DNA of 33,104 nt from Pseudomonadota bacterium. GTDB taxonomy: Bacteria > Bdellovibrionota > Bdellovibrionia > Bdellovibrionales > Bdellovibrionaceae. The notes under the pieces are model-generated. The model made no database searches. It was not told the DNA's origin and saw only the letters and a program-made list of their open reading frames with translations. The stretch lies in assembly GCA_021300175.1 (NCBI GenBank), contig JAJTIC010000009.1, forward strand, positions 1-33,104, read 5' to 3'. Shown piece after piece: positions 29,095 to 33,104 of the stretch (within the stretch, counting starts at the first letter, position 1; the number at the start of each line of letters is the position of its first letter). Made by a program: the position numbers and the translations under genes.

Positions 29095-29508
29095 TCAGCT
29101 TTTGGAAGTTACTGATCTTGGATCAGGAATTTGTGGAAGACCGTCAGTGATTTCATAGTAATCACCTTTTTCAGCCGTAAAGATGTGTTGTTTTATCTTC
29201 GTGTTGGTCGGAGTATCAAAAGCTCCCATCGATATGGCCGTCCAATTATGTTTTTCTTGATCTAACGGATCCCAAAATAACGATGATCCACACACAGCAC
29301 AAAAGCCCCTACGAACCTTATTAGAGGATTGATACCAAACCACTTTGTCGGCACCATTTACTTTCACCGCAGTTCGAGGCACATCGGCCGACACTTCATA
29401 GTGCCCTGTGTGCTTTCGACATTCACGACAATGACATGCGCTTGGCGGCGGTAGCTCGCACGAAACTTCAAATGTGATTTGTCCACACAGACAAGAACCT
29501 TTATGCAT
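29095..29508 (-). CDS. GFA-family zinc protein (CENP-V/GFA domain)
   Basis: A 137-residue protein with the GFA zinc fold: GSCLCGQITFEV (C-x-C), then SACHCRECRKHTGH (C-x-C-x2-C) and RRGFCAVCGSSLFWD (C-x2-C). The name comes from glutathione-dependent formaldehyde-activating enzyme, but most members have no tested function and may act on S-hydroxymethyl-glutathione-like adducts. AAGGGG is just upstream of the ATG. A second, partial member lies at the right edge of the window. Confidence 0.9.
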   Translation of the reverse strand: MHKGSCLCGQITFEVSCELPPPSACHCRECRKHTGHYEVSADVPRTAVKVNGADKVVWYQSSNKVRRGFCAVCGSSLFWDPLDQEKHNWTAISMGAFDTPTNTKIKQHIFTAEKGDYYEITDGLPQIPDPRSVTSKS

Positions 29509-30108: not shown

Positions 30109-30678
30109 TTCTTCATTCACCAGAAAACAAAACCCGAAATTCCATCAGCGGAATCCGGGTTCTCCTATTTAGGTAATGGTGGAGCTGAAGTATCAACAGA
30201 CGAACCTTTCTATCAACACGATTTCATTGAACTTTCCCCTCGAACACCCTCACGAATTTACGCAAAATGTGCCCCACTTTACGAGAACGGACTCTCGATT
30301 CGAGATATTGAAGAGCGAACAGGGATTCCCAAAACAACTGTTCGTGAAACTTTGAAAAAGAAAGGAATGTCACTTCGAAATCCACTCAATGGCAACGCAT
30401 CGAAGATTGATAGAACAAAAAACAAGCGTGGCGGTCACACGCCATATGGTTACGCTTACCTCGATGGCCAGCTTCTTCTTGACCCAAAAGAGCAGATCAT
30501 TGTCAGAAAAATCCTAAAGCTTCACCACTCAGGGCTCTCTGGAAATGCCATTACAAAGCAATTGAATAGTCAGAATATTCCTAGTCGAAATGGCAAATCG
30601 TGGAGTCCGTCAGTGGTTAGAGAAATTACAAAAAAAAACAAATCAATACAATCGAAACCTGGAGGCTCAAATGAATAA
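30109..30678 (+). CDS. Recombinase-like HTH protein without catalytic domain or canonical start
   Basis: An open frame of 189 codons. Residues about 56-85 form a resolvase-type HTH (ENGLSIRDIEERTGIPKTTV then RETLKKKG). The C-terminal part (GGHTPYGYAYLDGQLLLDPKEQ, then GNAITKQLNSQNIPSRNGKS) matches the Recombinase domain of large serine recombinases. The catalytic Ser resolvase domain is absent. From the TAA at 30106 to 30352 the frame has no ATG, GTG or TTG, although residues before the TTG (SPRTPSRIYAKCAPLYENG) look conserved. Either a rare start such as ATT is used or the 5' end is broken; TTG 30352 would delete most of the HTH. It overlaps the small downstream gene. Confidence 0.6.
   Translation, partial: FFIHQKTKPEIPSAESGFSYLGNGGAEVSTDEPFYQHDFIELSPRTPSRIYAKCAPLYENGLSIRDIEERTGIPKTTVRETLKKKGMSLRNPLNGNASKIDRTKNKRGGHTPYGYAYLDGQLLLDPKEQIIVRKILKLHHSGLSGNAITKQLNSQNIPSRNGKSWSPSVVREITKKNKSIQSKPGGSNE
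30121..30161 (-). terminator. Leftward intrinsic terminator next to a tRNA 3'-end fragment
   Basis: Read on the minus strand, AACCCG and ATTCC arms (30131-30161) fold with a 6-base loop and a small internal bulge, then continue as TTGTTTTCTG. This suits a Rho-independent terminator for leftward transcription. It begins 15 bases past the CCA of the tRNA-end fragment, the usual distance for a tRNA gene. Confidence 0.6.
30177..30190 (-). other. tRNA 3'-end-like fragment (possible attachment-site half)
   Basis: On the minus strand CTTCAGCTCCACCA looks like the last 14 bases of a tRNA gene (acceptor 3' strand plus encoded CCA), followed by a terminator. The T-arm and the rest of a tRNA are not there: rightward the sequence is the recombinase-like frame. 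This is what a tRNA-targeting element leaves at its far end. The fragment is short and could be chance. Confidence 0.4.
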
Positions 30679-30841
30679 TCTGATCAAAATTGCAACCGTA
30701 TTGGCATTAGCGGCCGTTGCCAGTGGCAATCTTCCTACAGTTCTATTCTACGTCAAGAAAGCCCAGTTACAACTCATTCAAGACTCAAAGGCATCAAAAT
30801 GGCCTAAGGTCATGACGTTACCAGAAAATAGAAAAGATTAA
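30671..30841 (+). CDS. Small (56-residue) membrane or secreted protein coupled to the recombinase-like gene
   Basis: ATG 30671 has GGAGG 5 bases upstream and overlaps the end of the recombinase-like frame by 8 bases. The product, MNNLIKIATVLALAAVASGN then LPTVLFYVKKAQLQLIQDSK and a basic tail, has one hydrophobic segment (residues 4-18) that could be a signal peptide or a single membrane anchor. No family is known to me. The strong ribosome site and the overlap make a two-gene cassette likely. Confidence 0.65.
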   Translation: MNNLIKIATVLALAAVASGNLPTVLFYVKKAQLQLIQDSKASKWPKVMTLPENRKD

Positions 30842-30851
30842 GCCACGGACA

Positions 30852-31226
30852 CTAGTCTAACAAACGATTCATCACAATTTTTTGGGATTTGGGGCTAAGC
30901 TTTTTGAAGAAAGGACTATTGATCTCGACTACTCTCCAAAATGGCGGAGTACTCTTCGTGACACCATTGGCAACCGAATCTTCGATTGCTATCCGAAAAA
31001 ACATTGAGGTCGTAACTGGGCAAGCCACATCTGCTTTCAATTTTTTTGCCAGCGCAATTCTTAAATCCTTCATCGTCCAGCGCTCACCTTTAGGTATTAT
31101 CTTTGTAAGTTCAAGAATCATCTCCGGCGTTCCGATAGCCATTTTCTGGCCAATTTTCATATCTGCAAAGTTCACCTCAAGAACCTTGAGCTTAGGCTGA
31201 TACTCCTTTACGGCCTTTTTCTTCAT
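30852..31226 (-). CDS. Conserved protein of unknown function, MGMT-like pattern
   Basis: A 124-residue protein. MAIGTPEMILELTKIIPKGE and WTMKDLRIALAKKLKADVACP, then PFWRVVEINS recall the DNA-binding domain of O6-alkylguanine transferases (IPxGxxxTYxxLA ... PFWRVI), and I recall similar stand-alone proteins in Bacteroidetes. The PCHR active-site motif is absent; CPVTTSMF lies in a different place. DNA-binding without alkyl transfer is possible but unproven. It overlaps the SRPBCC gene by 4 bases (ATGA) and is third in an AraC-led operon. Confidence 0.7.
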   Translation of the reverse strand: MKKKAVKEYQPKLKVLEVNFADMKIGQKMAIGTPEMILELTKIIPKGERWTMKDLRIALAKKLKADVACPVTTSMFFRIAIEDSVANGVTKSTPPFWRVVEINSPFFKKLSPKSQKIVMNRLLD

Positions 31227-31717
31227 GGCTTCTCCGCATGAGTCTTTAAATCAGCGACGTACTGATCGACTGTTTTCTCAATATTAAAAAAAACATAAGA
31301 AAACAACTTCGAAGTAAAACCATTTAACGAAACTGATTCAGTAAATTCAATCTGTGTTGTTCCATCTTCTTTTGAAGAAAATTTTCCAGTCCACATACCG
31401 CCAAACTGTGGGTTATCGATAACTTCAATGACAAATAAATGAGGAGCAGATTTGATCTTTGTCCGAAACTTTATCTCAGGTCCATGCTTCGGCTTTTCAA
31501 TCCAAACCTCCGCTCCAGAAGTCTTATCTTGAATCTGAATATTAGGTGAATCTAGTCGCCAGTCCTGAGCTTCTAGATTTGTAACGATTGCAAACACTTT
31601 CTCAATATTCGCATTGATGATCTCCGTTTTCGTATAGCTTCTCTCTGGTGGTAAAAGCGCCACAATCACACTTAAAAGAATTATAATTGTTAGAACCACA
31701 AATATTGCTGCTTTCAT
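31223..31717 (-). CDS. SRPBCC-family protein with N-terminal membrane anchor
   Basis: A 164-residue protein. An N-terminal hydrophobic helix (IFVVLTIIILLSVIVALLP) anchors a START/Bet v1-like ligand-binding domain: ERSYTKTEIINANIEKVFAI then VTNLEAQDWR, with FTESVSLNGF near the end of the fold. This group includes polyketide cyclase-like and ligand-binding proteins. The ligand is unknown. Start and stop overlap both neighbours, so the three-gene operon is translationally coupled. Confidence 0.85.
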   Translation of the reverse strand: MKAAIFVVLTIIILLSVIVALLPPERSYTKTEIINANIEKVFAIVTNLEAQDWRLDSPNIQIQDKTSGAEVWIEKPKHGPEIKFRTKIKSAPHLFVIEVIDNPQFGGMWTGKFSSKEDGTTQIEFTESVSLNGFTSKLFSYVFFNIEKTVDQYVADLKTHAEKP

Positions 31718-32601
31718 TATGATCTCTCTTTCAATGGGATATAGATTTCTGTTAAAAGATTACTCTCGCGCTTCACAGTTCTTGGATCATTTAAATAAAG
31801 TTCAAATGGGTAATTCTCACCAAGATCGTACTGGGACAACGGGAGCCAGTTTCTATACGCCAAATTCCAGGTTTGCCAGAGATTTTTATAACTCCCCCTG
31901 TGAAGAAAAACTGCCCAGAGCGATGGATTTAATTTAAAAAGATCAAGATTTGAGGTTTGTGGTTTTTCAGATTGAAACCATTCAAAACCACCAAAGTAAG
32001 TCATTGAATCCGAAAAACTTAAGTCAGGATCATCAAAAAAAATGGCATGAGGCTTTCCAACTTGGGTCAATAATTCACAAGCCTCTAGATCACTGATGAC
32101 CTTTTTGAAACATTTTTGAGCAGCCTTTTCAAATGAGCGTGTCTCATAACCTTTAATTGCCGTCCCTAAAAGGGAAAACCCCGCTCGCTGCTCTATCCGA
32201 TTGGGTGCTTGCTGTTGATTTTTAGAATCAGATTTTTGAGATTGCCAAAGGCGAAGAGTAGAACCGTTGAAATCCCGATTTTTCTTTGGTGTAATCCCGA
32301 ATCTTTTTTTGAAAGCACGAATGAAGGCTGATGTATTTTCATAACCAAGATCTATCGCAATCTCAATCACCGACCGAGAAGACCCATGCGCAATTTCTTT
32401 CATCCCGCGGGAGACTCTTTGTCGACGGAGATAGCCAGCAAGTGGCTCACCGGTATAAAGTTGAAACAATCGATGGAGATGAAAAACTGAAATACCCGAC
32501 ACTCTCGATAAATCATTCAAGGTAAGGTTCTGGGATAAATTCTCATCAATGTAACTCGCAACTCGATTGATTCGATTGCGGTATTCTTCTTCAAACTCCA
32601 T
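31717..32601 (-). CDS. AraC-family regulator with GyrI-like effector domain
   Basis: A 294-residue regulator. The N-terminal AraC domain has both HTH motifs: LTLNDLSRVSGISVFHLHRL (about 27-46) and IEIAIDLGYENTSAFIRAFK with KRFGITPKKNR. After a Q-rich linker, the C-terminal ~150 residues form a GyrI-like domain (FSLLGTAIKGYET, MTYFGGFEWF, WLPLSQYDLGENYPFELYLN) that binds small molecules, as in Rob and BmrR. It probably responds to a drug or metabolite and drives the SRPBCC and MGMT-like genes, with which it overlaps. Confidence 0.9.
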   Translation of the reverse strand: MEFEEEYRNRINRVASYIDENLSQNLTLNDLSRVSGISVFHLHRLFQLYTGEPLAGYLRRQRVSRGMKEIAHGSSRSVIEIAIDLGYENTSAFIRAFKKRFGITPKKNRDFNGSTLRLWQSQKSDSKNQQQAPNRIEQRAGFSLLGTAIKGYETRSFEKAAQKCFKKVISDLEACELLTQVGKPHAIFFDDPDLSFSDSMTYFGGFEWFQSEKPQTSNLDLFKLNPSLWAVFLHRGSYKNLWQTWNLAYRNWLPLSQYDLGENYPFELYLNDPRTVKRESNLLTEIYIPLKERS

Positions 32602-32865
32602 GAAATCATTATACTAATTTTGAAATTTTTTGATATGCAGAGTTTGCTATCCTGGTTCAATCCCCGCCACCAACTTGGTGACGTAACAACAGACGAACCA
32701 ATTTCTGTGACAAAAAAGATGAGTGAATTTACGGCTTTGCGAACCACCACTGGACGGTGGTTCGCCTAGACATTTGGTGGAGGTGATGCAAACACCCTGT
32801 ATTCAATAACTTATACCGTTTGGGCATCACTTGGGCAACAAACCGTTATTAATTAATATCAAAAA
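32602..32865. other. Scar-like region with tRNA-end fragments and hairpin, no clear gene
   Basis: No supported gene. It holds the AraC promoter side, a plus-strand sequence GGTTCAATCCCCGCCACCA (32654-32672) like a T-arm plus acceptor end of a tRNA or tmRNA, a 17-base repeat of the recombinase-frame 5' end (32683-32699), a perfect hairpin (32739-32765), and a minus-strand CACCTCCACCA (32775-32785). A 44-codon frame at 32636-32770 lacks a ribosome site and is probably a remnant. Bases 32790-32865 are AT-rich and featureless. Confidence 0.4.
32739..32765. repeat. Perfect 10-bp inverted repeat
   Basis: GCGAACCACC (32739-32748) and GGTGGTTCGC (32756-32765) are exact reverse complements with a 7-base loop. 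No T-run follows on either side, so this is a stable hairpin rather than a clear terminator. It lies 9 bases past the CCA of the minus-strand tRNA-end-like fragment. Confidence 0.65.
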
Positions 32866-33104
32866 CTATGGAGAAGAATATTTTGCCAGTACTTCTGCTT
32901 CCGTCATGGTCTCAGTTTTTTCTGCAAAACTATAATTCTTAGGTTTCATGTCTATAAAGATTTGTGTGTGAAATTTCAAACTTTCTGTGTTCTCAAGCAA
33001 TCCAAGGGGGAGATTGCAGAATTCAGATTCTTTAAGGCGGTAAAATAGGTGGGTTCCGCATTGTTTGCAGAAACCTCGCTCCGCCCAGTCAGAAGAGTTG
33101 TAGA
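32866..33104 (-). CDS. GFA-family zinc protein, 5'-truncated by window edge
   Basis: Partial gene of 78 visible codons, open to the right edge, with TAG at 32866-32868. It reads YNSSDWAERGFCKQCGTHLF, the C-x2-C zinc site of the GFA fold, then YRLKESEFCNLPLGLLENTE and HTQIFIDMKPKNYSF, the typical family tail (HIFVxxKPxWY). The first zinc-ligand cysteines would be outside the window. Differs in sequence from the member at 29095-29508. Confidence 0.8.
   Translation of the reverse strand, partial: YNSSDWAERGFCKQCGTHLFYRLKESEFCNLPLGLLENTESLKFHTQIFIDMKPKNYSFAEKTETMTEAEVLAKYSSP

Follow-up and report, generated by a model that had tools for sequence, protein, structure and literature searches.

SSV elements target tRNA genes. 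Self-splitting integrases, there tyrosine recombinases, have been stated to be exclusive to archaea (PMC8371274). In mycobacteriophage BPs, attP lies within the repressor gene and immunity is integration-dependent (PMC4557955), and for large serine recombinases (LSRs) a shift of the zinc-ribbon motif by 5 bp between attP and attB is the rule (PMC3783163). In the open-access literature we found no serine or bacterial integrase that is split by its own attP; an earlier description elsewhere is possible. Here, we analysed a pair of overlapping reading frames, ORF1 and ORF2, in a stretch of 33,104 nucleotides of Bdellovibrionota DNA (the window), and we put a probability of about 0.85 on this pair being the left end of a Bdellovibrionota integrative element with an LSR gene that is split by integration.

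The open frame from 30109 to 30678 codes for an HTH and, after it, a Recombinase-domain segment. Specifically, PF07508 (Recombinase) matches ORF1 residues 126-175 (E 2.4e-7), HTH families match weakly at residues ~51-91, and the Pfam search gave no match to the PF00239 catalytic domain in the window ORF1, bearing out a sequence-only reading that had described a resolvase-type HTH and a Recombinase segment with no catalytic domain. By itself, ORF1 lies outside the LSRs, comprising the PF07508 segment and the HTH only. That reading was also right that the second ORF starts within the 3' end of the first behind a strong ribosome-binding site (GGAGG) and has one hydrophobic segment (Kyte-Doolittle 1.77 over 19 residues). 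It had let the pair begin at 30109; the frame is indeed open from there, but this position is just after a stop codon and is not a start codon, the true left boundary of this copy is the TGG at 30177, and the earliest in-frame ATG/GTG/TTG lies 59 codons past the boundary. Profile and fold comparisons match ORF1 to the att-DNA-bound recombinase domain of LSRs (9y66, 4kis, 9iu9) and to bipartite HTH domains; the model is moderately confident (pLDDT 73), and none of the fold matches reaches E 0.001. On these comparisons, ORF1 would read as a second, C-terminal DNA-binding module of an LSR.

Table 1 Positions of predicted features around ORF1 and ORF2 in the window.
Feature	Position	Strand	Basis or remark
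Intrinsic terminator	30119..30171	-	Hairpin of -19 kcal/mol, then TTTTGTTTTC
Putative left attachment half-site (attL, P' arm)	30177..30206	+	Homology boundary; inverted-repeat centre TGGT[NN]
attL core TGGT[GG]	30177-30182	+	
attL outer motif CGAACC	30201-30206	+	30-nt arm, as in attP
ORF1, predicted start-less C-terminal part of LSR gene	30175..30678	+	
Resolvase-type HTH in ORF1	30247..30360	+	Predicted helices 25-37, 42-49, 53-62; HTH family matches
Recombinase-domain-like segment in ORF1	30484..30636	+	PF07508; A118/LI integrase RD matches
ORF2 ribosome-binding site GGAGG	30661..30665	+	Similar sites before ORF2 in most copies
ORF2, 56 aa, one hydrophobic helix	30671..30841	+	Conserved family
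Three genes (124, 164, 294 aa)	30852..32601	-	ORF list; right of left end
Second outer att arm copy	32679..32699	.	Direct repeat D1, 19/21 to 30186-30206

ORF1 relatives are present in 56 of 100 related genomes, and of the roughly 115 copies nearly all have no in-frame catalytic domain; phylum-wide, 129 of 291 Bdellovibrionota genomes, belonging to 82 of 163 genera, have ORF1, the genomes compared being mostly MAGs. A strict pattern finds an ORF2-type ORF right after the ORF1 stop in 49 of 64 copies, and inspection of the translations raises this to about 56; at a minority of left ends, no ORF2 was found. The family is marked by a hydrophobic helix and a motif like AQxxLIxxSxxSxW. A collection scan with the ORF2 peptide as query (the ORF1 alignment, A1, was too diverse) matched Bdellovibrionota MAGs and one MAG labelled Deltaproteobacteria. 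Because of this recurrence across genomes, we regard the ORF1-ORF2 pair as both conserved and real. The expectation that the pair would recur held, with order and overlap conserved, several copies per genome and a tie to tRNA genes in a larger element. Of the loci L001-L030, none has an intact tRNA beside the pair; the tRNA sits at the far end of the element.

Alignment of the copies revealed that the DNA left of ORF1 is unrelated between them up to a sharp point, TGG(T/A), and that ~45 nt to the right of this point are conserved and run into ORF1; terminator-like hairpins often finish just left of it. A stretch of 14,179 bp is 99.8% identical in two species, in which its flanks and places differ (G053:C1:2065678-2079856 and G058:C1:1087618-1101795); it carries metal-efflux genes, starts at the TGG boundary with ORF1 and ends at GGAAATGGATG. 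Because the boundary is sharp and this near-identical stretch begins there, ORF1 is the gene at the left terminus of a mobile element. The LSR of the 14-kb element is without a catalytic domain, and this element is perhaps mobilised in trans. Members of the family are integrative elements of 14-41 kb that sit at the CCA end of a tRNA or tmRNA gene. At an empty tRNA-Pro site in G058, the same left flank runs on into TGGTCGGGG, and the same site in G053 is occupied by 41,110 bp. We note that G058:C1:1057512-1155940 contains three left ends in ~100 kb, with the last LSR ending at tRNA-Gln; this region could have arisen by repeated insertion, in tandem, at a single tRNA and would then hold a hybrid LSR-ORF1 junction.

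The first view of the other end came from a contig (G005:C46) on which the ORF1 frame extends back into a complete LSR with PF00239, PF07508 and zinc ribbon, and an earlier candidate, an intron or IS-type left end, was dropped after the LSR was found. A search seeded with this LSR gave about 100 relatives, many of which lie on the same strand as an ORF1, 12-45 kb away. These LSR ORFs are not closed by a stop inside the element: where an intact tRNA lies at the end, the frame of 48 of 49 LSRs crosses TGG, the reverse complement of the tRNA CCA, into the antisense tRNA and ends 21-294 nt after TGG, in or past it. Among the targets are tRNAs for Leu, Ser, Arg, Met, Pro, Gln, Ala and Val, and by our own reading of four right ends (L127, L130, L140, L176) the tmRNA 3' end appears to be a target as well. 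Based on its domains, the whole gene at the related loci can be classed as an LSR: L069 (769 aa) matches PF00239 (E 1.7e-31), PF07508 (3.4e-19) and the zinc ribbon (2.7e-8), and the G075 LSR likewise has all three. A small ORF of ~126-180 aa precedes the LSR at L239:10723-11103, with similar ones in L235, L243 and L258; it looks ribbon-helix-helix-like by eye, has no Pfam match, and is a candidate regulator.

Several comparisons connect the two ends. In each of 16 same-contig pairs, the T of TGG occupies one and the same codon position at the left and the right end; 14 pairs share one common phase (third position), G038:C81 has the second (2,2) and G075:C1 the first (1,1), and for the L086-L126 pair the phase was read from the continuous frame. 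An element-specific inverted repeat appears when the two ends are joined; its centre falls exactly on TGGT[NN], where 270 of 480 positions pair versus 83-138 at other centres, and re-pairing the ends did equally well or better in 0 of 20,000 cases, a permutation count that is not a strict probability as the end pairs are related by descent. In the G053 element, this repeat includes a perfect 14-nt inverted repeat, GGTTCGCATAATAC/GTATTATGCGAACC. When closed in silico, circles of 25,618, 27,482, 32,827 and 41,110 bp each have one ORF of 724-741 aa across the junction, and ORF1 distances correlate with LSR distances (rho 0.45, 9 of 5002 permutations). Contiguous LSR-ORF1 genes also occur in nature, namely in G005:C46 (784 aa), in G181:C42 (752 aa, with a relative of the window ORF2 behind it) and in G181:C159 (730 aa); these may be tandem junctions. 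Palindrome scans of these three, at the settings used, found no strong symmetric attP, which fits hybrid junctions or divergence; in G181:C42, GGTTC is visible by eye 20 nt before TGGGG, and GAACC ends at 30 nt. The contig with the 730-aa LSR (L257) also has a family-A-like DNA polymerase and is possibly a phage or plasmid. In the viral contigs, phages and plasmids searched for a free form, nothing covered the ORF1 part, and no element was seen in circular form.

The half-sites have the geometry of an LSR system. The distance from the T to the end of GAACC is 25 nt in 49 of 49 tRNAs (the attB half) and 30 nt (29-30 by pattern) at left ends with a recognisable motif (the attP half), so that the two differ by the 5-bp zinc-ribbon shift known from LSRs; the inverted-repeat attP and the central dinucleotide are likewise found. 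Together, these comparisons show at the level of sequence that attP lies inside the LSR gene, that integration therefore cuts this gene in two, which would remove its C-terminal DNA-binding domain, and that both parts are conserved. The catalytic domain was thus not lost in the window alone, as had been considered; it belongs to the same split gene and lies at the opposite element end. The boundary and frame results also rule out a stand-alone cassette, and a self-contained mini-element is likewise unsupported.

We also considered that ORF1 is an independent DNA-binding protein, such as a directionality factor, made from a non-canonical start at the left end, and that att geometry merely happens to put it in frame with the LSR. 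Near the boundary, 13 of 55 ORF1 copies do have an ATG/GTG/TTG in frame, and an unusual start codon is possible; moreover, integrated elements conserve ORF1, and ORF2 follows with a good ribosome-binding site. However, a start codon is missing from the first 28 codons in 42 of the 55 copies, and the boundary phase varies between elements and tracks the LSR phase. Because the flank left of TGG is chromosomal and variable, no ribosome-binding site could be conserved there, and we consider an independent ORF1 improbable. Among the earlier proposals, that of a directionality factor of a larger element nevertheless came closest, with the difference that the factor would be a domain of the integrase, attached or detached according to the state of the DNA.

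A further explanation is that the left-end copies are decaying, functionless footprints of old LSR insertions, as might be suspected from stops or frameshifts in some ORF1 copies, from the 14-kb element's defective LSR and from the window MAG, in which no LSR with PF07508 was found. Against this, dN/dS is 0.15 for ORF1 of the window versus its relatives and 0.08-0.24 for the ORF1 family (16 pairs), which places ORF1 under purifying selection; ORF2 is conserved, complete two-ended elements are present on many contigs, and two species have near-identical copies. We therefore give general decay little credence, and for individual copies such as that of the window it may hold. That the pair is a toxin-like or addiction module on mobile elements, as also suggested earlier for a small membrane peptide overlapping a DNA-binding protein, is highly implausible, as the DNA-binding part is the 3' end of the LSR gene and lacks a start of its own, the pair is not the independent two-gene operon of a toxin-antitoxin system, and comparison with Pfam, NCBIfam and PHROGs revealed no known toxin family.

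Returning to the window with the split LSR gene as the preferred reading, TGGTGGAGCTGA at 30177 is an attachment core imitating the antisense of a tRNA 3' end. The tRNA-end fragment noticed earlier next to the pair thus stands as an att core of this kind and not as an intact tRNA, none of which is present within the window; nor did Rfam give anything relevant there. Our own reading of TGGTGGAGCTGA points to tRNA-Ala as the probable target of the window copy, and no tRNA-Ala pattern was found in the window's own genome. The terminator left of the core is read as chromosomal flank, the end of a former tRNA operon, and terminators occur at the matching place left of many other copies. From their position right of the left end, the three genes following ORF2 are possible cargo; the 294-aa gene seems AraC-like by eye. 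Further right, the second att-like arm adjoins a tRNA-3'-end-like remnant at 32654-32672, and the two probably form a decayed junction. We also observed a hairpin, GCGAACCACC...GGTGGTTCGC, at 32739-32768, which carries the GGTTCG/CGAACC motif and adjoins the decayed att arm, and GFA-type-looking genes that flank the pair on both sides (29095-29508 and 32866-33102). The contig stops at 33104, and the only candidate conjugation gene for this copy is a distant TraC relative (27% identity) on contig C85 of the same MAG. Because no LSR with PF07508 turned up in this MAG, the full element is not seen there and the window copy may be a remnant; we keep both readings, whole element and remnant.

With respect to the type of element, genes of the VirB4/TraC, VirB6, VirB9, VirB10 and coupling-protein families lie beside the LSR in the G075 element, and the same conjugation gene order is visible by eye in three more; no relaxase was identified in the four elements read. 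Having a conjugation apparatus and an integrase between att sites, at least some family members are ICE-like. Cargo varies between elements, and metal efflux is also recognisable by eye in the 41-kb element.

These observations suggest a model in which the split-gene architecture is well supported and the direction of the switch is our working hypothesis. Integration leaves the LSR, with its catalytic, RD and zinc-ribbon domains, at the right end, reading into the antisense tRNA, and leaves start-less ORF1, followed by ORF2, at the left end. In the circle, the LSR promoter would drive LSR-ORF1-ORF2, and the long LSR-ORF1 enzyme would be the integrating form. Integration would then strip off the ORF1 DNA-binding domain and sever ORF1 and ORF2 from the promoter, so that the state of the DNA would set the activity of the enzyme. 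The ORF2 product would be a small membrane protein, produced mainly in the circular state of the element. The short LSR retains all canonical domains and may therefore be the excising form or, just as likely, may be inactive, as proposed for archaeal suicidal integrases; we give each of the two rather less than even odds, the remainder falling to other roles. We speculate, with some doubt, that the LSR is self-switching, the long form made from the circle integrating and the short form excising, which would replace a separate directionality factor and confine ORF2 to the circle.

If correct, this arrangement would provide a naturally occurring LSR that is directed to tRNA genes and carries a removable control domain, and would make the direction control of LSRs directly testable by adding or removing one domain. 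It would also account for odd gene predictions in Bdellovibrionota, namely LSRs whose tails are antisense tRNA and recombinase fragments that lack a start. A serine version present throughout a bacterial phylum would mean that the self-splitting solution arose independently.

The related loci share with A118/LI integrase, Bxb1, phiC31, CcrB and XisF the catalytic, RD and zinc-ribbon domains, the inverted-repeat attP and the 5-bp zinc-ribbon shift between attP and attB; unlike in these systems, attP lies within the gene, an extra HTH and a second RD-like domain are present, and the targets are the CCA ends of many tRNAs and of tmRNA. As in BPs, attP in a gene would let integration shorten the C-terminus of the product and alter its activity, but the BPs repressor loses a degradation tag, whereas here the recombinase would lose a DNA-binding domain. 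The elements described here share tRNA genes as targets with SSV elements. A close parallel is with the SSV-type (suicidal) tyrosine integrases of archaeal viruses and plasmids, in which the att site likewise lies in the integrase gene and the gene is split to the two element ends on integration (PMC8371274), as our sequence comparisons indicate for the related loci. Unlike these archaeal tyrosine recombinases, the enzyme described here has serine recombinase domains and belongs to bacteria, the Bdellovibrionota, and its split keeps all canonical LSR domains together and severs an added C-terminal DNA-binding domain.
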